A DNA stretch of 64,000 bases from Slackia exigua ATCC 700122 (GCF_000162875.1 NZ_GG700631.1:529277-593276); one strand, 5' to 3'; counted from the first letter of the stretch, positions 53,594-64,000 are shown. The notes: generated by a model not told the origin, from the letters alone. Program-made: numbers and translations.

Positions 53594-55564
53594 CTATCTG
53601 CCGAGACGAAGGGCCCTCATCGAGTTGAGAATGGCCAGGCAGGCCACGCCCACATCGCCGAAGACCGCGAGCCACATCGTCGCGATGCCGATGAACGGCA
53701 GCGCAAGGATCATGATAACCACCTTGACGCCTATGGCGAAGATGATGTTCTGCCAAACGATGGCCATGGTCTTGCGAGCGATCGTGACCGTGCGCGCGAT
53801 GTTCGACGGCTTGTCGTCCATGAGCACAATGTCGGCCGCCTCGATGGCGGCGTCGGAGCCCATGGCGCCCATCGCGATGCCGACGTCGGAACGCATGAGC
53901 ACCGGCGCGTCGTTGATGCCGTCGCCGACGAAGGCGAGCGTTCCCTCACGATGCCCGAAGCGCGCGCTGAAACGTTTGGAAGAGGCCTTGCCGGAAGCAG
54001 GGCCCGAAGCGTTCGCCGCATCGTTGCGCACCATCAGACGCTCGACCCGCGAGACTTTGTCACCCGGCATGAGCTGCGCATGGAATTCATCGATGCCGAG
54101 ACGATCAGCAACCGCGGCGGCGACTTCCTCGCGATCGCCCGTCAGCATGACGATGCGTTTCACGCCCACCGCATGCAGATCGCGCACGGCGGCATCGGCG
54201 TCGTCTTTCAGCACGTCGGCGATGACGATGTGCCCGATGTGACGTCCGTCGAGCGCGACGTAGAGGATGGTCCCGACGAGCTCGCAATTCTTGAAGTCGA
54301 TGCCTTCCGCCTCCATGAGCTTATCGTTGCCGACGAGCACCGCGTGAGAATCGATATCGGCCGCGATGCCCATGCCGCTGCGTTCCTCGACGCGCGCGAT
54401 CTGGTCGCGATCTATCACGCCGCTATAGCTCGCCTTGACGGACAGCGCGATCGGATGGTCGGAATACGCCTCGGCATGCGCCGCATAGGACAGCACCAGA
54501 TCGGGTGCAACGCCTTCGGCCGTATGCACGGCAACCACATTGAACGTGCCGTTCGTGAGCGTGCCGGTCTTGTCGAAGACGACCGTCTCCGCCGCCGCGA
54601 GCGCTTCCAGATAGACCGAGCCCTTCACCATGATGCCGGCGCGCGATGCGGCGCCGATGCCGCTGAAGAACGAGAGAGGCACGCTGATGACCAGGGCGCA
54701 GGGACAGCTGACGACGAGAAAGATGAGCGCGCCCTTGATGCTGTCGGTCCATGACTGCCCGAAGAGCACCGGGGATACGAACGCGATGATGGCCGCCAAC
54801 CCCACGACGATGGGCGTGTAGTAGCGGGCGAAGCGCGTGATGAAGGCCTCGGTGCGGCCTTTCTTCTCGCTCGCCTCCTCGACGAGCTCGAGGATGCGCG
54901 AAACCGTGGACTGGCCGAACGGCTTGGTTGCCCGTACGGTGAGGACCCCCGTCATATTGACGCAGCCGCTCACGACCGCGACGCCCGACTCGACGACGCG
55001 CGGCACCGATTCCCCCGTCAGCGCCGACGTATCCAGCTGGGACGCCCCGTCGACGACGATGCCGTCCAAGGGGATGCGCTCGCCCGGCTTCACGACGATC
55101 TCGTCGCCGACGGCGACCTCGTACGGATCTACCCGCACGAGGTCGCCGTCGCGCATGATGTTCGCGTAATCAGGGGCGATATCCATCATCTCGGTGATGG
55201 ACCTACGCGTGCGGCCGACCGCGTATTCCTCGAAGAACTCGCCTACCTGATAGAACAGCATGACCGCAGCGCCTTCAGCCATATGCGGCTCGGCCTCGGG
55301 AAAGAAGACGAGGGCGAACGCGCCGATCGTGGCGATGGACATGAGCAGGTTCTCATCGAACGGCTGACCGTGCGTGATGCCGTGAACCGCCCGTCCCAGC
55401 ACGTCATAGCCGGCGATGAGGTACGGCACGAGGAAGAGGCCGAATTGGATCCAAAGGCCATGTTCGCCTTCGACCAGGCCGGTGTGCGCGATGATCTCCA
55501 CCACGATGAATATCGCGAGGGCCGCGCCCACACGTGCGAGCATCTTCTTCTGCTTATGCGTCAT
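53594..55564 (-). CDS. heavy-metal P1B-type ATPase, Zn/Cd/Pb exporter type
   Basis: A 656-residue membrane pump. It has several membrane helices; the actuator TGES loop is at 183-186, the ion-binding CPC at 287-289 (SCPCALV), the phosphorylated Asp331 in DKTGTLTNG, the HMA nucleotide motif HP in SDHPIAL, and GDGINDAP. The usual N-terminal HMA domain is absent; a separate 72-residue HMA protein sits upstream. An unusual Ala/Ser/Lys/Arg stretch (ASGPASGKASSKRFSARFGH) is inserted before GDGINDAP. With an SmtB-type regulator upstream, Zn or Cd export is likely. ACGAGG precedes ATG 55564. Confidence 0.95.
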   Translation of the reverse strand: MTHKQKKMLARVGAALAIFIVVEIIAHTGLVEGEHGLWIQFGLFLVPYLIAGYDVLGRAVHGITHGQPFDENLLMSIATIGAFALVFFPEAEPHMAEGAAVMLFYQVGEFFEEYAVGRTRRSITEMMDIAPDYANIMRDGDLVRVDPYEVAVGDEIVVKPGERIPLDGIVVDGASQLDTSALTGESVPRVVESGVAVVSGCVNMTGVLTVRATKPFGQSTVSRILELVEEASEKKGRTEAFITRFARYYTPIVVGLAAIIAFVSPVLFGQSWTDSIKGALIFLVVSCPCALVISVPLSFFSGIGAASRAGIMVKGSVYLEALAAAETVVFDKTGTLTNGTFNVVAVHTAEGVAPDLVLSYAAHAEAYSDHPIALSVKASYSGVIDRDQIARVEERSGMGIAADIDSHAVLVGNDKLMEAEGIDFKNCELVGTILYVALDGRHIGHIVIADVLKDDADAAVRDLHAVGVKRIVMLTGDREEVAAAVADRLGIDEFHAQLMPGDKVSRVERLMVRNDAANASGPASGKASSKRFSARFGHREGTLAFVGDGINDAPVLMRSDVGIAMGAMGSDAAIEAADIVLMDDKPSNIARTVTIARKTMAIVWQNIIFAIGVKVVIMILALPFIGIATMWLAVFGDVGVACLAILNSMRALRLGR

Positions 55565-55729
55565 GCGTCGTACCTCGTTTGAATATCATGTTCGGACAAG
55601 CGCCCGAAGCGGTCGCCTTGGCAGCGACGAACCCAGGGAGCCGACGACGCCGGCTCCTTCATGCATGCCGTCAGCCTGAAGCGACCAGGCATCTTCATAC
55701 CGACAGCCACCGAATGCCGAAACTCTGCG

Positions 55730-55948
55730 TTAGACGAGAACCGTGCAGTCGGGCTCGATATCGCCGAAGATCTTGACGGACTTGTCCAAGATGTCATCGA
55801 ATCGATCGTCGGCCGCGTCCAGCGTGAATTTCTGGAACATGAAATTGACCTTCGCGTCGTTCACGCCTTCGAGCTGATTGATCTTGTCCTGGATCTTGGC
55901 GGCGCAGTTCGCGCAGATTTCGCCTTCGAGCTTCATGATCTTACGCAT
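55730..55948 (-). CDS. small HMA-domain metallochaperone
   Basis: A 72-residue stand-alone heavy-metal-associated domain with the beta-alpha-beta-beta-alpha-beta pattern. The metal loop reads GEICANCAAKIQDKI (CXXC cysteines at about 12 and 15). The acidic Glu before the CXXC resembles zinc/cadmium HMA domains. It likely hands metal to the adjacent ATPase, which lacks its own HMA domain: the fused domain appears to have been separated into its own gene. GGAAGGA precedes ATG 55948. It lies 165 bp ahead of the ATPase. Confidence 0.92.
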   Translation of the reverse strand: MRKIMKLEGEICANCAAKIQDKINQLEGVNDAKVNFMFQKFTLDAADDRFDDILDKSVKIFGDIEPDCTVLV

Positions 55949-56022
55949 ATGGATCTTCCTTCCCCGTACGAACGCCCCTGCGGACATCCGTCTCGAACTT
56001 CGTACGCTCCGAGCGAGAGCGG

Positions 56023-56343
56023 CTATTCGCAGATATGCGTCAAGCCCTGCGAAAGCATCGTGTAGACATGGTCGTCCGACAGCGAGTAGATGATCTGCTT
56101 GCCGTCGCGCTGGAACTTCACCAGATGCGCCTGCTTGAGCAACCGCAGCTGATGCGACGCGGCGCTTTGCGAAACGCCCACGACCGATGCCAGATCGGCA
56201 ACGCAAAGATCGGCCTCCATCAGCGCATATAGAATCTTGATGCGCGTGGTGTCGGCGAATACCTTGAACAGGTCCGCAAGGTCGTAGAGCATCTCTTCGT
56301 CAAGCGTCTCGCCCGCTTCGATGCCTTCAAGCCCTTCGCTCAT
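56023..56343 (-). CDS. ArsR/SmtB family metal-sensing repressor
   Basis: A 106-residue winged-helix repressor. The recognition helix is VSQSAASHQLRLLK. The C-terminal alpha5 zinc site is complete: in DDHVYTMLSQGLTHICE the residues Asp, His(+2), His(+13) and Glu(+16) match the SmtB/CzrA pattern exactly. The alpha3N region DLCVADL keeps one cysteine. So it should release DNA on binding Zn(II) (or Cd). GGAGGGG precedes ATG 56343. It is first in the operon, with its operator directly upstream. Confidence 0.95.
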   Translation of the reverse strand: MSEGLEGIEAGETLDEEMLYDLADLFKVFADTTRIKILYALMEADLCVADLASVVGVSQSAASHQLRLLKQAHLVKFQRDGKQIIYSLSDDHVYTMLSQGLTHICE

Positions 56344-56367
56344 GTCCCCTCCGCATTCTCGTAACTA

Positions 56368-56389
56368 CATATGAGCATTTGTTCATATG
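56368..56389. promoter_or_regulatory. ArsR/SmtB-type operator
   Basis: CATATGA (56368-56374), 8 bp, TCATATG (56383-56389): a perfect 7+7 inverted repeat of the type bound by zinc-sensing ArsR proteins. It lies just downstream of the -10 box, over the transcription start. Confidence 0.85.
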
Positions 56390-56397
56390 ATGATCTC

Positions 56398-56425
56398 AGT
56401 ATACGAGCGCGGCGATCCATGTCAA
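56398..56425 (-). promoter_or_regulatory. promoter of the metal-efflux operon
   Basis: Minus strand TTGACA (56425-56420), 16 bp, TATACT (56403-56398): a near-consensus promoter. Transcription should start near 56391, inside the operator. Confidence 0.88.
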
Positions 56426-56691
56426 TGGAAAATTCTCGACGCATCGAATATTCGCCATGATGGCGAAGAGCAGCGGTCGGCACGCAGGAACGAGGGCGTT
56501 GTCGTCGTCGACCAGGCGCACCGGACGGTCGACCGTCTTGAAAAGGGTTCAACGCGGATACGGCTCTCCACGCCACGCATCCGACGCGCAGGGACCAAGC
56601 GAGCCGACCGAAATGCGAAGAATCCAAGAAACGGCAGGATGGCCAGCCGAGCGCGGCCCGAGCCGATACGCTACCCTGAATGCGCGAAGAC

Positions 56692-56718
56692 GTGTGCGGC
56701 GTGCAGCACGCCGCACAC
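56692..56718. promoter_or_regulatory. perfect 12-bp palindrome ahead of the LysR gene
   Basis: GTGTGCGGCGTG-CAG-CACGCCGCACAC, perfect over 12 bp, ends 30 bp before the LysR ATG. It could be an autoregulatory operator or an RNA hairpin in the leader. Without a T-run it is not a typical terminator. The rest of 56426-56691 shows nothing else. Confidence 0.6.
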
Positions 56719-56748
56719 GCCCGGACCGAACGACCATGAAGGAACGGA

Positions 56749-57669
56749 ATGAAGCTCAACCAGCTTAGATACCTCATCCAGATCGTCCGCAGCGGATCGA
56801 TCAATCGTGCGGCGCAAGCCCTCTATATAAGCCAGCCCACCCTCTCGAAGACGGTCGAGGATCTGGAAGCCGAAATGGGCATCGTCATCTTCATCCGCAC
56901 GAGCCGCGGCGTCACGCTCACCGAGGACGGCATGCGGTTCCTGTCCTACGCTCGCCAGGTGGTCGAGCAGGCCGACGTGCTCGAAAGCCTGTACAAGGGC
57001 GGAACGTCCCAGCGGCGCGTGTTCGCCATATCGTCGCAGCACTACGCCTTCGTCGTGAACGCCTTCGTCAACCTGGTCAGGGAATACGGCGAGGAACGCT
57101 ACGAGTTCTCACTGCGCGAGGGGCGCACGCACGATATCGTCGAAGATGTGCGGCTCGCCCGCAGCGAGCTGGGCGTCATCTATCTGAGCTCATTCAACGC
57201 CGATGTGATCACGCGCATCCTCGGCAATGCCGACCTCGCCTTCACCGAACTCTTCACAGCGCATCCGCACGTCTTCGTCAGCAGGCGCAATCCGCTTTCG
57301 AAGCGCGCTTCCATCACGCTCGACGAGCTGCGTGCCTATCCGCGCCTGAGCTACGAGCAGGGCGTCGAGAATTCGTTCTACTTCGCCGAAGAGATGCACA
57401 TCACCGAAGACAGCCCGAAGGCCATCGTCGTTTCGGATCGCGCAACGCTGTTCAACCTGCTTATCGGGCTGGACGGCTACACGATTTCGAGCGGCATCCT
57501 CTCGAGCGACCTGAACGGCACCGACATCGTGGCCGTGCCGCTCGAATCCGACGAGATCATGCGCATCGGCTACATCTCGCCCGAGGGACGCCCCCTCAGC
57601 CCGATGGCGAAGCGCTACCTCGAGCATCTGGACGCCTATATGCGCGCCTACGATCCGAAGAATGCTTGA
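56749..57669 (+). CDS. LysR family transcriptional regulator
   Basis: A 306-residue regulator. The N-terminal HTH (MKLNQLRYLIQIVRSGSINR, then AALYISQPTLSKTVEDLE-type sequence) is typical of LysR proteins, followed by the linker helix and a two-lobe effector domain (about 90-300). AAGGAACGGA precedes ATG 56749. Neighbours are a divergent metal operon and a convergent membrane regulator, so its target is unclear; divergent control of the ArsR operon cannot be excluded, but that promoter already has its own operator. Confidence 0.94.
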   Translation: MKLNQLRYLIQIVRSGSINRAAQALYISQPTLSKTVEDLEAEMGIVIFIRTSRGVTLTEDGMRFLSYARQVVEQADVLESLYKGGTSQRRVFAISSQHYAFVVNAFVNLVREYGEERYEFSLREGRTHDIVEDVRLARSELGVIYLSSFNADVITRILGNADLAFTELFTAHPHVFVSRRNPLSKRASITLDELRAYPRLSYEQGVENSFYFAEEMHITEDSPKAIVVSDRATLFNLLIGLDGYTISSGILSSDLNGTDIVAVPLESDEIMRIGYISPEGRPLSPMAKRYLEHLDAYMRAYDPKNA

Positions 57670-57716: not shown

Positions 57717-59243
57717 TCAATCCGCGTATTGCTCGATGTAGTCGAGGATCGCCTGGCGGGAATGCAGATCGGTCTTCGAATAGATGCGCTTCACATGCGT
57801 ATGCGCCGTTCCGGGCGCGATGCGCAGCTCCTCGGCGATCTTCGCCTGCGTGAGCCCCATGGCGTAGAGCGTCAGCACTTCGGTTTCGCGGTTGGAGAGC
57901 ATGAATTGCTCCTGCATGGCCTTGGCGCTCTCGCGCACGATGGCCTTTCTCATTTCGGTGCCGGGCGCGGCCTCTTCCCTGATGCCCAGCAATCGCTGCA
58001 CGTTTTTGGCCGCCGCCCTGCTCTCCTTGGTTTCATCGCGCTCGATCCCAAGGAACTGCACGAACACGAACTGCGCCGAAAGCAGCAGCAGGCTGCCCGC
58101 GATGGCGGTAGGCAGGACGGTCGAAGGAAGATCGCTGAATGTGAGGATGCTCGCAACACGCATGAGCGAGCGCGGCAGCAAGAACACGGCCCAGGCGCCG
58201 AACGCATAGTAATAGAAGTCGCGATGCCCATGGCTTGAAAACGCGATGATGAGATACGACATGAAGCACGACATGAGAATGTTCATGGCATTCACGAAAA
58301 TGGCGCCGATGTCGAGCGATTCGGGAAACACCGCGAACGCGATGAGCGCCAATGAGCCCAGCACCTGCATCGCGATCCACATGTACACGGTCATCATATT
58401 CTTGCCGCGCATCATGCCCACGATGAAACTTGCGAGCAAGGAAATCGTGATCAGGGTGTATGCCAGACGCGTGAAAGCGCCGAAGCGAATGGGCTCGCCG
58501 GAAGGAAAGCCTTTCAGGATGCCGATGACGATGGAGATCATGAAGGTGCCCAGCGCGATGACGGCAAGGAAGCTCACGCTGTCGGCCTTCTTTTCGGCGA
58601 AATGGAAGTAGCCGCGCGCCTTCGACACGATGGACGACGTCTCGGGCAGCGGACGTTTGCGCGCCATGCGCACGAGCGCGTACTGCACGAGGCATAGCGC
58701 GCCGAACATGCCGCACTGCAGTTCGCGTGGGAGAAAACACGCCGCGTACAGCAACGCCTCGCTGATGGCGAAGGCGGAGAACACCACGATGATGGCCACG
58801 GCGCAGGTGGTATTGCGGCAGCGACGCAGCCAATAGAACATGCACAGCCACGCGCTGAGCGTCGACACGGAGCTCAGCACGAGGTACTCGATCCCCTGCG
58901 AGCCGGGAATGCATTCCAGAAACGCGATGCCGAACAGGGCAAGGCTCTCGCAGGCGATGCAGACGAGCGTGATGGTGATCGTCACCGTCTTCGAAACGAT
59001 CGCGTTCGTGATTCCCAAGCACAGAAGCGCGATCAGAAGCGGCATCATGACGATGAGGGTGCTTCCATCGGTGAACAGGCCGTTATCGGTGCTTGCATAG
59101 CTGTTGTACGACGACACGATCACGCCTGAACGCGAAATCATGAATCCCAGGATGGTGGGCACGAGCGCAGCTATCTGCTCGCGGCTCACGCGTAAATGAT
59201 CCGGACGTTCGCCAGGAACGGCCTTCGGTGCGGTTGCGTTCAT
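57717..59243 (-). CDS. polytopic membrane LuxR-type regulator
   Basis: A 508-residue protein: residues 25-430 hold about ten to twelve membrane helices, residues 440-508 a LuxR HTH (LSNRETEVLTLYAMGLTQAKI then APGTAHTHVKRIYSKTDLHSRQ). This architecture is characteristic of Eggerthellaceae, where many such genes sit beside redox enzyme genes and probably sense a substrate at the membrane. GGGGGAG precedes ATG 59243. It is divergent from the acidic protein/nifU/nifS cluster across 212 bp containing repeated TACCC motifs. Confidence 0.93.
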   Translation of the reverse strand: MNATAPKAVPGERPDHLRVSREQIAALVPTILGFMISRSGVIVSSYNSYASTDNGLFTDGSTLIVMMPLLIALLCLGITNAIVSKTVTITITLVCIACESLALFGIAFLECIPGSQGIEYLVLSSVSTLSAWLCMFYWLRRCRNTTCAVAIIVVFSAFAISEALLYAACFLPRELQCGMFGALCLVQYALVRMARKRPLPETSSIVSKARGYFHFAEKKADSVSFLAVIALGTFMISIVIGILKGFPSGEPIRFGAFTRLAYTLITISLLASFIVGMMRGKNMMTVYMWIAMQVLGSLALIAFAVFPESLDIGAIFVNAMNILMSCFMSYLIIAFSSHGHRDFYYYAFGAWAVFLLPRSLMRVASILTFSDLPSTVLPTAIAGSLLLLSAQFVFVQFLGIERDETKESRAAAKNVQRLLGIREEAAPGTEMRKAIVRESAKAMQEQFMLSNRETEVLTLYAMGLTQAKIAEELRIAPGTAHTHVKRIYSKTDLHSRQAILDYIEQYAD

Positions 59244-59282
59244 GGTGACTCCCCCAAGTCCCCTTTTCGGCAGTTTGCCGTA

Positions 59283-59353
59283 TACCCTGCAAGCTACCCT
59301 GTTGAAGAATGCCTTGCCGGCATATGTCCCCCAAATACCCCTTAAAGAGGGTA
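59283..59353. promoter_or_regulatory. cluster of TACCC/GGGTA motifs in a divergent control region
   Basis: TACCCTG at 59283-59289 and 59295-59301 (12 bp apart), then TACCC-N8-GGGTA at 59336-59353. NarL-type LuxR proteins bind heptamers of the TACYYMT type, so these are plausible sites for the adjacent membrane LuxR regulator. No consensus promoter was found. Confidence 0.5.
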
Positions 59354-59455
59354 CAGATGCAGTGTAGCGACAGGCACGATGGAAAACATCGAAGAATGCT
59401 CCGTTTTCAAACGTTTTGACAGGATGGAAGCACGAATGCGGAAGGAGGAACGCTC

Positions 59456-60448
59456 GTGATCGAATCGCATGAGACCGTCCAAGATTCTGAAAAGGCCGAG
59501 TTCGATACGGATGTTGCCGAAGAGTCGCCGCAGAGCACCGAGGCATCGCCCCTCGAACGCACGCCCGAAGAAGAGTTCCTCGCACGCATGCTCGCCGCAA
59601 CGGGTGCGACGAGCTTGGAAGAGGCGGGGCTGCGCGATCCCGAGCGGGAGGCGGAGCTGGCAAATCGGCTCGAAGAGGAGCTTTCGCCGGAAGAGCGGCA
59701 GGCGAAAGCCGAGCACGATGCCTTTGCGGCGGCGTTCGACATGATTCGCACACGCTCGAATACAGGAAAGCTCACCACGCCCGGCACGTGGGCCGCCGAG
59801 GGCATCGTGCCCGTGCATCTGACGCCCGTGGAATTTTCAGACCTGGTCTTCGATGAAATCATCGCCGCCCAGGCCGCGATGAGCGAGGAGGCTTCGTCTG
59901 CGGGCGCGGCAGACGAGAGCATCGAAACCGGAGACAGGCAAGAAGGCACGCGAGCATCGGAAGACGACCGAACCACGGAAACCTCCGACACGCTTATCGA
60001 TGATGGAGAGAATGCCGATATCAACGACAACCGCAGCGCATCCGAATCCGAGACGCCCGCATGGCAGCTCGACGACATCAAGGTGCTCGAAGGCGCGCAA
60101 ACCTATCTGTATTCGTCCGATTTCATGACCGATGCCTACGCCCACTGGGCCTTCCTCGCCGAAGAAGGCGACGATGCGCTCACGTTGGCCGACAATGCGC
60201 GCGCCGAATCGCGCATGTATCCGCGCCCGATGCTCGCGACGTCGCTTTCGAGCAAGCCGTATCGCTGGAATGCCGAGCGCATCGCGCAGGCGTGGCAGGC
60301 CGTGCAGGAATCGGATGCCTACTCCGACATCCGAACGTGCACGGCAAGCAATGGGGAGCGGTATTTCTATTCGTCCGACCACCTTTCCGACGCGCAGGCG
60401 AAGGCCTTGGCGGAATGGTATTCGGTCGAACGGTACATGAACGTATAA
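59456..60448 (+). CDS. acidic protein of unknown function, possibly YdhW-like
   Basis: A 330-residue, strongly acidic protein. The N-terminal 140 residues are charged and helical, ending in IVPVHLTPVEFSDLVFDEIIAAQ. A Ser/Asp/Glu-rich linker (about 145-205) follows. The C-terminal 125 residues form a compact domain with repeated aromatic pairs (TYLYSSDFMTDAYAHWAFLA and RYFYSSDHLSDAQAKALAEWY). GTG 59456 is the start, with GGAAGGAGG upstream. In E. coli the AOR-family ydhV is accompanied by the small accessory ydhW; the local AOR gene makes a YdhW-like role attractive, but I cannot confirm homology. It leads a three-gene operon. Confidence 0.82.
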   Translation: MIESHETVQDSEKAEFDTDVAEESPQSTEASPLERTPEEEFLARMLAATGATSLEEAGLRDPEREAELANRLEEELSPEERQAKAEHDAFAAAFDMIRTRSNTGKLTTPGTWAAEGIVPVHLTPVEFSDLVFDEIIAAQAAMSEEASSAGAADESIETGDRQEGTRASEDDRTTETSDTLIDDGENADINDNRSASESETPAWQLDDIKVLEGAQTYLYSSDFMTDAYAHWAFLAEEGDDALTLADNARAESRMYPRPMLATSLSSKPYRWNAERIAQAWQAVQESDAYSDIRTCTASNGERYFYSSDHLSDAQAKALAEWYSVERYMNV

Positions 60449-60543
60449 GGAAACGACGCGATGCATCGCTTCGGATCCGCACGCAGGCAGAGCCGAAGGA
60501 CGAGAGAAGTCGGCGCATGCGAAGCGTCGCAAAGGGGGAATCG

Positions 60544-61158
60544 ATGAAACCGGAAGACATGCTCGGAGGCGCGCCCGTCGGCAAACCGTACATTCGCACG
60601 CGCGACGTGTTCCAGACCGACAACGACCGCGACACCGAGGGCTATTCCGATGAGGCGCTCGCGCTTGTGGCCGACGTCGCGAAAACAGGCGTGCCCGAAG
60701 ATACGAACGCCATCGGCATGGCGGGCTCGGCCAAGCACGGGGTAATCGCCGTGCAGCTGTTCGCGCATGTGAATCCTGCAACGCACGTGATCGAGCGGGC
60801 GGGCTACCGCGCGCACGGCTGCTTGGCGATGATCGCCTCGGGCTGCGCCGCCGCATATTGGATGGAAGGCAAGACGGTGGAAGAGGCTGCCGCCATCTCC
60901 GCCGAAACGCTGGCCGAAGCCCGCGGTGCCGTGCCGCGCGACAAGTCGTACACCGCGCGCTATGGAGCCTGCGCCGTGCGCGGCATGTGCGGCGATTTCC
61001 TCATACGCCAGGGCGCTTCCTATGAAGACATGGGTGCGCGTCCGCATGCCTGCGACGATGCATCGCTCGATTGCGTGATGTGCGAGAACTGCTCGTTGCG
61101 CGACGCCATGGTCGACCTGCAGATCGCCTACCGCCATCGTGCGGCAGCGGATGCATAG
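60544..61158 (+). CDS. IscU/NifU-like Fe-S scaffold variant
   Basis: A 204-residue protein with NifU N-terminal (IscU) similarity: GYRAHGCLAMIASGC matches the second-ligand motif and ENCSLRDAMVDLQIAYRHR matches the third. The first ligand, normally in a CGD motif, is replaced by Lys-His-Gly (residues 64-66). Extra cysteines occur at 143, 149, 170, 177 and 180, giving a CDDASLDCVMCENC cluster not found in ordinary IscU. AAAGGGGG precedes ATG 60544. It is followed 5 bp later by a cysteine desulfurase. A scaffold or metal-site maturation role is inferred. Confidence 0.85.
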   Translation: MKPEDMLGGAPVGKPYIRTRDVFQTDNDRDTEGYSDEALALVADVAKTGVPEDTNAIGMAGSAKHGVIAVQLFAHVNPATHVIERAGYRAHGCLAMIASGCAAAYWMEGKTVEEAAAISAETLAEARGAVPRDKSYTARYGACAVRGMCGDFLIRQGASYEDMGARPHACDDASLDCVMCENCSLRDAMVDLQIAYRHRAAADA

Positions 61159-61163
61159 ACGCC

Positions 61164-62363
61164 ATGGGCGATCGGGCCGACGCGCAACGACGCGTCTATT
61201 TGGATAACGCCGCCACCACGCGCATATCGAATGCCGCATTCGCGGCCATGGAACCGTATCTGCGCGGCGGATTCGGCAACCCTTCGTCCCTGTATGCCGA
61301 GGCGCGCATGGCACGGGCCGCCGTCGAGCAAGCTCGCGCCGGCATCGCCGCGCTCATAGGCGCTGATCCGCATGAGGTGTACTTCACCTCATGCGGAACG
61401 GAATCGAACAACTGGGCCATCAAGGGCTGCATGCATGCGCAGGCTCGGACGAAGGGCCGCAAAGGCCGTTTCGTCACCACCGCATTCGAACACCCCGCCG
61501 TGCTCAACAGCGCGCGAACCCTGCACGAAGACGGCTTCGACGTTGCCTACGTGCCGGTCGGCGAAACGGGATTCGTCGACGAACGCGCCTTCGCCGAAGC
61601 GCTCGGACACGGTGCCGACTTGGCTTCGGCGATGCTCGCGAACAACGAGGTGGGCACTATCCAGCCCGTCGCGCGCCTCGCACGCGCGGCGCATGCGGCA
61701 GACGCACGCTTCCATTGCGACGCCGTGCAGGCGTTCGGCCATATTCCCGTGGATGTGCGCGATTTGGACGTCGACTACCTCAGCGTCTCGGGCCATAAAT
61801 TCCATGGACCCAAAGGCGTGGGGTTCCTCTATGCGCGCGACGGGGCGCCTCTGGAGCCCCTCATGGACGGCGGGCGCCAAGAGCGCGGCCTGCGCGGCGG
61901 CACCGAAAACGTAGCGGGCATCGTCGGTATGGCGGCGGCGGCCGAGGAAGCCTGCACGAACATGGCGGAGGATGCCCGGCGTATCGCTCGTCTGCGAAAC
62001 GAGCTGCAGCGGCGTATTCTCGAAGAGATCTCCGGCACCTGCATAAACGGTGCCGAACCACGTGTGCCGGGCACGCTCGATATATCGTTCGAGGGCGTTG
62101 ACTCCGCCTCGCTCGTGGAGCTGCTCGACGAGCGAGGCGTATGCGCATCGGGCGGAAGCGCCTGTGCAAGCCGCGAGGGCGAACCCTCGCATGTGCTTAC
62201 AGCGCTCGGGCTTTCTACCGAACGTGCCCAAGGCGCCCTGCGGTTCTCGCTTTCCGACGAAACCAGCGAGGCCGATATCGACCAGACCTTACGGATCCTG
62301 AAAAGCTGCATTGATCAGCTGCGGAACTTCGGCCTTATCGACATCGCGCGTTTCCGGTCGTAA
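61164..62363 (+). CDS. cysteine desulfurase, NifS/IscS type
   Basis: A 399-residue PLP enzyme that moves sulfur from cysteine to a protein persulfide. The Schiff-base lysine is Lys212 (VSGHKFHGPKG) and the catalytic cysteine Cys334 lies on the loop CASGGSACAS; the histidine in AFEHPAV is also present. The extended active-site loop marks a group I (NifS/IscS) enzyme, able to serve as a sulfur donor for Fe-S assembly. It starts 5 bp after the IscU-like stop without a clear Shine-Dalgarno, implying coupling, and ends at a strong terminator. Confidence 0.95.
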   Translation: MGDRADAQRRVYLDNAATTRISNAAFAAMEPYLRGGFGNPSSLYAEARMARAAVEQARAGIAALIGADPHEVYFTSCGTESNNWAIKGCMHAQARTKGRKGRFVTTAFEHPAVLNSARTLHEDGFDVAYVPVGETGFVDERAFAEALGHGADLASAMLANNEVGTIQPVARLARAAHAADARFHCDAVQAFGHIPVDVRDLDVDYLSVSGHKFHGPKGVGFLYARDGAPLEPLMDGGRQERGLRGGTENVAGIVGMAAAAEEACTNMAEDARRIARLRNELQRRILEEISGTCINGAEPRVPGTLDISFEGVDSASLVELLDERGVCASGGSACASREGEPSHVLTALGLSTERAQGALRFSLSDETSEADIDQTLRILKSCIDQLRNFGLIDIARFRS

Positions 62364-62408
62364 GGGGCTGCGTCCGACCCCCCTGCCCGCCACACGTCTC
62401 TATCACGC

Positions 62409-62443
62409 AAAGAGCCTGCCGCATTGCACGGCAGGCTCTTTCT
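62409..62443. terminator. bidirectional rho-independent terminator
   Basis: Perfect 13-bp stem AAAGAGCCTGCCG / CGGCAGGCTCTTT (62409-62421 and 62429-62441) with a 7-nt loop; A-run on one side and T-run on the other. It separates the convergent nifS-like and AOR genes. Confidence 0.92.
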
Positions 62444-62530
62444 GCACCCTGATGGCTTTCTGCCGCGCTTAAAGGCGCGGCGCCCCCGGATGCGGACGGC
62501 ATGGGGGGCGTGCCGTCCGCAGGAGGTTCG

Positions 62531-64000
62531 CTAGAGCAGATTCTTGGACCGAAGGTCTTCCTTCACATCGGTCAGGTTGTACCCATCGAGGCATTCCGCA
62601 GTGGGAGCGCCGGTCTTCTCGTCCCAGCCGAATTCCTTGTACACCATGGTAAGAGCGGTCTGGAAATCTTCCTTCTCCATTTTGTCGGTGCCGGCCGTGA
62701 AGGGCTCGATATCGGGATCTTTCGTGAACGGCCACTCGGTGTAGACGTCGTGAACGTTGCGGAAGTCGCTCGTGCCCATGCCGCGCATCGTGTTGGCGCG
62801 CTGCAGGGTCATGATGGCCGCACCGCGCTTGTAGAGCTCTTCGGTCGTAATGTCCTCGCCGGTCACGGCCTTGTAGAACTTCGCTTCCAAGTCCAGGTCG
62901 CCGCGGTAGTCGCGGGACTTCGACGGGCTCATGGCCATCGGCCACACCCAGTTGCACAGCGTGAGCGAATCGTGCAGCACGTCGGTCACGATAGACCACC
63001 AGCAGAACCTCGCCTTGGACTCGTTCATGGGCGAGTAGTTCTTCGTCTCGTCGATGGCGTCTTCGCCGCCCCAGAGCTCGGCTGCGATTTCGCGCTTCTT
63101 CTCGATAGGCAGGCCGCAGCCTTGGAAGTTCACGGCGGAATGGATCATGTCGTCACGGTTGAACATCATGTTGTACACGGCGCCCACCTGGCCGAAGCAT
63201 TCGTGCGCATGGTGCACGGGCCAGCCGCGGTAGTTGATGAGGCAGCTCGCGGTTGTGTCGAACCATTCCATATCGTCCCAGCGTTCGCACCACACGATGT
63301 CGCCGTGCGCGATATAGCTCATCTCGTTGTCGTTCTGCGCGATGTGACGCAGGATCTTCACCATGATGGACGGATCGTTGTTCTTGAAGGCGTCCCAATC
63401 GAACAGGTCGTACTCCTCTTCGGGCAGCACGCGCTTGAAGATGCCCTTGGAAATGCAGTGCGCGATGTCGCGGTAGAGCTGCGCGTAGTTGCACCACAGG
63501 CCCAGATCGTCAACCGTGGAGCCGATGACCTGGTTCCAGATGACGCAGTCCTCGGAGTTGTCTTCGACCTGGGTGTTCTCGCCGAGGATCTTGATCATGT
63601 ACTTGAACGGGAAATTCGGCACGCAGGTGTTGCCCGTGATCTCGTAGCCGCCATGCTCGGCCGAACCGGGAATGCGCATGTCGGAATAGCAGTGGATCGG
63701 GCAGCTGTGGCAACCGTTCATCTTGATGGTGTACTTCTCGGCTTCGGGGCCGTCGTCCTTGGTCGTCTTCATGCAGCGATAGCCCACGGTGTTGAGCTCG
63801 CCGGGCTTCGGCTCGCCGGTCTCGATCGGATCGCCTTCGGCTTGCGCCCAGTACAGACCCTTGCGCGCGGTCCAACGGCTGCCCTTGTCGTAGAATTCCG
63901 CCCACTCCTGCTGGGTGGAAGGCACCACATGGTTGTTGTTCGAACCCACGATGCCGGAAATCATGTAGTCGGAAAGCGCGGCGACGACCTTCGGATGGGC
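62531..64000 (-). CDS. aldehyde:ferredoxin oxidoreductase family protein, N-terminus outside the window
   Basis: The C-terminal 490 or so residues of an AOR-family tungsten/molybdenum (bis-pyranopterin) enzyme; the frame is open to the window edge and the N-terminal cofactor domain is missing. The Fe-S cluster cysteines appear as CHSCPIHC with a distal Cys in TLCNWVWPM. GNTCVPNFPFKYM, FQGCGLPIEKKR and the closing MGTSDFRNVHDVY match the family; a Met-Arg-Gly-Met-Gly stretch precedes it. AOR enzymes oxidise aldehydes to acids with ferredoxin; YdhV-type members have unknown substrates. It converges on the nifS-like gene. Confidence 0.9.
   Translation of the reverse strand, partial: AHPKVVAALSDYMISGIVGSNNNHVVPSTQQEWAEFYDKGSRWTARKGLYWAQAEGDPIETGEPKPGELNTVGYRCMKTTKDDGPEAEKYTIKMNGCHSCPIHCYSDMRIPGSAEHGGYEITGNTCVPNFPFKYMIKILGENTQVEDNSEDCVIWNQVIGSTVDDLGLWCNYAQLYRDIAHCISKGIFKRVLPEEEYDLFDWDAFKNNDPSIMVKILRHIAQNDNEMSYIAHGDIVWCERWDDMEWFDTTASCLINYRGWPVHHAHECFGQVGAVYNMMFNRDDMIHSAVNFQGCGLPIEKKREIAAELWGGEDAIDETKNYSPMNESKARFCWWSIVTDVLHDSLTLCNWVWPMAMSPSKSRDYRGDLDLEAKFYKAVTGEDITTEELYKRGAAIMTLQRANTMRGMGTSDFRNVHDVYTEWPFTKDPDIEPFTAGTDKMEKEDFQTALTMVYKEFGWDEKTGAPTAECLDGYNLTDVKEDLRSKNLL

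Follow-up and report, generated by a model that had tools for sequence, protein, structure and literature searches.

The right-hand end of the window, the 64,000-nucleotide stretch of the Slackia exigua ATCC 700122 genome analysed here (NZ_GG700631.1:529277-593276), appears to carry one half of a YdhV-type (Class V) tungsten/molybdenum oxidoreductase system, namely its regulatory and helper genes. The helper genes encode a YdhW-like acidic protein and an altered IscU-fold protein, here called NifUv. The co-inheritance of NifUv with YdhV, the fusion of NifUv to YdhW and the operator shared by their promoters are solid observations. The favoured reading, given a probability of about 0.5, is that NifUv and YdhW together are dedicated to the assembly of YdhV prior to its export by the Tat system.

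Gene layout and identity of the enzyme

The features of the locus are listed in Table 1. All five genes were found where the initial annotation had placed them, as judged from Pfam, NCBIfam and the sequence itself. Where the NifS and YdhV genes converge, a hairpin lies between them and is a possible two-way terminator; a scan for consensus promoters and terminators returned no promoter and did not call this hairpin, and Rfam and ARAGORN gave no matches over the whole window. To the left of the module (window 53594-57669) are a heavy-metal P-type ATPase, a short ORF, an ArsR-like ORF recognized by eye and a LysR regulator.

Table 1. Features of the YdhW-NifUv locus, in window coordinates.
Feature	Position	Strand	Basis
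TM-LuxR regulator gene	57717-59243	-	Pfam GerE and hydrophobic segments
Operator dyad TACCCCTTAAAGAGGGTA	59336-59353	+	between LuxR and YdhW genes
YdhW-like acidic protein, 330 aa	59456-60448	+	NCBIfam NF007411
NifUv (NifU_N protein)	60544-61158	+	Pfam NifU_N
NifS-type class-V aminotransferase / cysteine desulfurase	61164-62363	+	TIGR03402
Hairpin, perfect 13-bp stem, 7-nt loop	62409-62441		seen directly in the sequence
YdhV (AOR family, Class V WOR large subunit), 3' part, cut by window edge	62531-64000	-	NF007354

The AOR-family enzyme is YdhV, a Class V tungsten oxidoreductase. The part inside the window scored 701 bits against NF007354, the E. coli YdhV equivalog model, and the full-length protein (gene L002:6808-8934, extending to window-equivalent 64657) scored 1038 bits, above the cut-off of 868. 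The metal ligand Cys336 of E. coli YdhV is conserved, with GNTC aligned among the E. coli, C. somerae, S. exigua and Collinsella-like sequences. Beyond the window and divergent from ydhV lies an operon that encodes a YdhY-like ferredoxin, a Tat-tagged molybdopterin oxidoreductase whose nearest relative is the thiosulfate reductase PhsA, a second ferredoxin and an NrfD membrane protein. The RR Tat-like motif is present in 67 of 68 YdhY sequences; YdhY of this genome has this motif together with a hydrophobic segment, and with the three genes downstream it matches the subunit set of Class V. YdhV would pair with the ferredoxin subunit YdhY and its Tat-like signal, and here also with the other three products of the operon.

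In a related family (L177:10291-10938 and L178:14091-14771), a gene for a Cgr1-like multihaem cytochrome follows ydhY-ydhV and replaces those for the molybdopterin oxidoreductase, second ferredoxin and NrfD; the electron-transfer partner is therefore exchangeable. NifUv and YdhW are kept with either set of partners, and therefore track YdhV/YdhY. The idea that NifUv serves the molybdopterin oxidoreductase was rejected because NifUv is retained where this subunit is missing. In some relatives ydhY and the molybdopterin gene are separated by a gene for a TorD/NarJ-like (Nitrate_red_del) chaperone (L073:4386-5066, L084:12892-13587), and none was seen at the corresponding place in the S. exigua genome.

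Co-inheritance of NifUv, YdhW and YdhV

Among 138 genomes of the family, 67 carried NifUv, 70 a full-score YdhV and 68 YdhW. NifUv and YdhV occurred together in 66 genomes, NifUv alone in 1 and YdhV alone in 4 (Fisher p 3e-33, a value that ignores the relatedness of the genomes), and several of these one-only exceptions are fragmented assemblies. In a set of 398 genomes of the class, 34 outside the family carried NifUv and the identical 34 carried YdhV, two of them only as fragments. More distant YdhV-like proteins in G232, G254, G212 and G189, which scored below the cut-off (412-769 bits), were without NifUv. NifUv and YdhV are encoded on separate contigs in G238, G295, G314 and G338 (the gene pair was read in three of these genomes), and chance co-location was rejected because the two genes sit on different contigs yet in the same genomes.

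YdhW was found adjacent to NifUv, within 4 kb, at 76 of the 77 distinct NifUv loci and fused to it in one open frame at 16 of them, and a divergent TM-LuxR gene was present at 65 of the 75 loci with enough sequence; since the loci share ancestry, these counts do not represent independent events. YdhW and NifUv make up a single unit, in some cases one polypeptide, and presumably touch each other where they are unfused. The initial annotation had proposed a module of the acidic protein, the IscU variant, NifS and the AOR enzyme, with the membrane LuxR as a further part, and had suggested co-occurrence in related genomes as a check. The acidic protein, IscU variant and AOR enzyme do co-occur almost always and share a common operator, and the LuxR has proved to be a conserved neighbour. 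NifS, on the other hand, is near the module at 3 of 77 loci; it is accessory and does not belong to the core.

The suggested comparison of the acidic protein with E. coli YdhW was borne out, as the NCBIfam YdhW model NF007411 aligned with residues 193-329 at E 1.7e-29. The score of 103 bits is below the curated threshold of 203 and the homology concerns the C-terminal domain; the protein is a distant YdhW. Residues 1-205 contain 52 D+E versus 15 K+R. The AlphaFold model of the window protein (pLDDT 83) begins with a helical N-terminal region, which an acidic linker joins to a C-terminal region; the winged-helix-like structural matches of the latter (Z at most 6.8) are too weak for class assignment. 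Searches of YdhW against PDB profiles at E 1 and with Foldseek at E 0.001 returned nothing.

NifUv, an IscU fold without the canonical ligands

NifUv is a distinct Coriobacteriia family with the IscU fold, minus two of the three cluster cysteines and the aspartate, plus an invariant Cys-rich tail. The window protein matches Pfam NifU_N at E 4.2e-11, and a PDB search with the NifUv profile retrieves chains of IscU/NifU (4eb5_C, E 3e-21). The structural evidence comes from one predictor and from a fused homologue (L095) in place of the window protein; the model of this homologue (pLDDT 86) superposes on A. fulgidus IscU (4eb5_C) with Z 20.0 and an rmsd of 1.9 A over 138 residues. The profile separates NifUv cleanly from ordinary NifU/SufU in the 398 genomes of the class (at least 190 bits versus at most 87). 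A scan of genome contigs with conserved peptide patterns, which distant relatives could escape, found NifUv in Coriobacteriia only.

Alignment of 85 distinct NifUv sequences showed that the canonical first Cys is never Cys (mostly R, H or K), the Asp is never Asp (mostly Glu) and the third Cys is present in one sequence (mostly Thr), while the second Cys is kept in 79. The window protein retains the second Cys only. The C-terminal cysteines C170, C177 and C183, in the motif CDxxSxxCxxCEHCSLR, are invariant in all 85. Because the fold is kept and the canonical ligands are lost, NifUv has the shape of a scaffold without the cluster site. Compared with the IscU/NifU cluster scaffolds, it has the fold and lacks the set of three Cys and Asp. 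The zinc site of SufU consists of Cys, Asp, Cys and Cys; these residues of the zinc-dependent sulfurtransferases occupy the same alignment columns as the IscU ligands and are likewise missing in NifUv. The loss of the ligands argues against ordinary scaffold chemistry, and the tail could be zinc-binding and structural. It is proposed, tentatively and at somewhat less than even odds, that NifUv represents a new class of cofactor-handling protein which, joined to YdhW, supplies a single family of tungsten/molybdenum enzymes with sulfur, a cluster or the metal.

The desulfurase of the locus carries the catalytic motifs of its family, with the PLP lysine in SGHKF at 209 and the catalytic-Cys loop GSACAS at 331. 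It scored 454 bits against TIGR03402, below the equivalog threshold of 530.75, and is therefore classed only as NifS-type. The gene begins 5 nt after NifUv and adjoins NifUv only in this genome and in Slackia isoflavoniconvertens. The third NifS-type case is in one MAG (L140/L179), downstream of NrfD. A desulfurase of a different kind, EF2568-type, lies upstream of ydhY in L191, where a row of genes (L191:1056-8043) encodes a MOSC-domain protein, this desulfurase, YdhY, a distant YdhV (35% identity) and YdhW, without NifUv. Desulfurases have therefore joined YdhV/YdhW loci repeatedly, at three separate places, but rarely.

These arrangements are what speaks for the model of the initial annotation, in which the AOR enzyme obtains its Fe-S clusters from a private NifS-IscU pair. 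The rarity of NifS at the module and the near-complete loss of the first Cys, Asp and third Cys in NifUv count against it, as does the presence in the same genome of two SufB/D-type proteins beside a SufS-like protein, and a private supply of this kind is not what the module conserves and is improbable. Since the SufB/D-type and SufS-like proteins are present, housekeeping cluster assembly is covered, and NifUv/NifS as the housekeeping Fe-S system was rejected.

Regulation by TM-LuxR and a private operator

The TM-LuxR protein has a C-terminal GerE domain (Pfam E 1.2e-12) and an N-terminal multi-helix membrane part with at least 9 hydrophobic segments by simple hydropathy (10-12 helices in the known group). 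Its recognition helix, T-x-H-x-H-x-K-R, is near-invariant in 66 module LuxRs (H481 and H483 100%, K485 97%, R486 89%) and varies in 19 other LuxRs. In the 212-bp divergent promoter, the TACCC motifs pointed out earlier are indeed present at 59283, 59295 and 59336, with GGGTA at 59349, against 0.12 expected from the window average, and they have turned out to be half-sites of a longer dyad. TACCC alone was seen 74 times in the promoters versus 28 expected. The k-mer AAAGAGG was seen 61 times versus 4.9 expected in 67 LuxR/operon promoters, and it sits within the conserved dyad TAYCCBN(1-2)AAAGAGGKKA. With up to two mismatches, the dyad was found in 55 of 67 LuxR/YdhW-NifUv promoters (0.3 in shuffles) and in 61 of 74 YdhV/YdhY promoters (0.25 in shuffles). 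The pattern was derived from these same promoters, and its independent test is the absence elsewhere in the genomes: across 137 genomes the 17-bp main form was matched exactly at 72 sites, all of them within the two promoters, with 37 preceding YdhV and 35 preceding YdhW/NifUv. The dyad of the window is the longer form, with one extra spacer base, and the second copy in this genome (L002:9071-9087, window-equivalent 64794) lies in the ydhV/ydhY promoter with two mismatches.

As the same dyad recurs in both divergent promoters, LuxR, YdhW, NifUv and YdhV/YdhY look like one regulon. TM-LuxR presumably binds the dyad and is predicted to be the activator of both operons. Known TM-LuxRs of this group activate neighbouring enzyme genes upon substrate sensing (PMC9734109). 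An external compound, when present, would lead TM-LuxR to activate both operons through the private operator.

The regulatory link also bears on the idea that NifUv-YdhW is a cytoplasmic metal or redox sensor that controls the ydh genes together with TM-LuxR. The LuxR-YdhW-NifUv set remains intact in L176 and L193 though YdhV lies elsewhere, and the winged-helix-like matches of YdhW point in the same direction. These matches are, however, below Z 8 and may reflect a chance arrangement, YdhW is strongly acidic in its N-terminal half, and the ydhV operons of E. coli and Cetobacterium have YdhW without LuxR. A sensor function is improbable, if less so than the private NifS-IscU pair.

A proposed role in the assembly of YdhV

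In the favoured scheme, the NifUv-YdhW unit would act in the cytoplasm on YdhV. NifUv, through its IscU fold, would accept the cargo, which may be sulfur, a cluster or a metal, on the Cys-rich tail. The sulfur donor would probably be whichever desulfurase is present, SufS in most genomes and the extra NifS in two Slackia species. YdhW may then pass the cargo to apo-YdhV, or hold apo-YdhV until it has acquired the cofactor, after which the loaded YdhV complex would be exported with YdhY. We infer this assembly role, and the nature of the delivered cargo, from several lines of evidence. In addition to the co-occurrence of YdhV and NifUv, the adjacency and fusion of NifUv and YdhW and the shared operator, YdhY carries the Tat-like motif and NifUv and YdhW of this genome have no hydrophobic segment. 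In Cetobacterium, the genes fdhD, tatA/tatC and moeA lie downstream of ydhV-ydhW, and the desulfurase genes next to YdhV/YdhW loci at three separate places also fit.

Against the assembly role, the YdhV and YdhW genes of E. coli and Cetobacterium are not accompanied by NifUv, which is therefore not required by every YdhV. The YdhV paralogues in L102 and L104 likewise have YdhW and no neighbouring NifUv; they form a second YdhV clade with 58-64% identity to the window YdhV.

A rival reading makes NifUv and YdhW genuine subunits of the YdhV/YdhY enzyme, with the Cys tail as an electron-transfer or structural metal centre. NifUv co-occurs tightly with YdhV, its tail cysteines are invariant, and ydhW is inside the ydhV operon of E. 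coli and Cetobacterium. In Coriobacteriales, however, the genes form a separate operon, which in four genomes is on contigs apart from ydhV; no export signal was seen on NifUv or YdhW, whereas YdhY carries one, and the E. coli and Cetobacterium operons are without NifUv. A subunit role is unlikely, at perhaps one chance in five. Overall, an assembly role is favoured over a subunit role, followed by a sensor and then by a classical NifS-IscU supply.

Comparison with known systems

The YdhV/YdhY and partner genes of Coriobacteria have been described as Class V WORs in a 2026 survey, according to which none of the Class V enzymes has an established activity (PMC13328260). The claim of an undescribed module holds in part, as these genes are described and the survey makes no mention of a NifU-type protein. 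The YdhV cluster was already known; NifUv, the NifUv-YdhW fusion and the operator appear to lack a description in searchable papers, and no report of YdhV with NifU, or of NifU with tungsten, AOR and desulfurase, was found in the open-access literature. The same survey expressed the C. somerae Class V large subunit, which was recovered without the small subunit and had no detectable aldehyde activity; a cysteine desulfurase co-purified with it and was deemed unrelated by the authors, and the third gene of the operon was omitted from the test and its function left open (PMC13328260). This third gene is YdhW-like. The outcome is compatible with a missing assembly factor and is not proof of one.

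The module is carried by anaerobic gut and oral Coriobacteriia. The IscU fold of NifUv, with its co-inheritance and fusion to YdhW, gives a first clue and a testable proposal for the function of YdhW. Co-expression of YdhW and NifUv is suggested as a practical route to active enzyme, and the private operator with TM-LuxR offers a reporter for the natural inducer and thereby perhaps the substrate.

The system shares with the Class V WORs (WOR clade 41, including E. coli YdhV/YdhY and C. somerae CsWOR41) the Cys336 ligand in YdhV and the Tat-like YdhY, and with those of Coriobacteria, among which the survey names Slackia, the membrane and pterin subunits; it differs in the NifU-type protein and in the operator, which the survey does not describe (PMC13328260). 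The E. coli operon ydhYVWXUT has homologues of YdhY, YdhV and YdhW, a ferredoxin (YdhX) and a membrane subunit, but is without NifUv, TM-LuxR or NifS. In both E. coli and C. somerae YdhW directly follows YdhV, whereas in Slackia it is in a separate LuxR-linked operon. NifUv resembles the IscU/NifU/SufU family in its fold, NifU_N match and mostly retained second Cys, and departs from it in the missing first and third Cys and Asp, the Cys-rich tail and the YdhW fusion. TM-LuxR is similar to the 10-12-TM LuxR activators of Coriobacteriia (DadR, HcdR and CadR) in that a membrane N-terminal part is joined to GerE and the gene adjoins metabolic genes thought to be under its control (PMC9734109), and differs from them in its module-specific recognition helix and operator.
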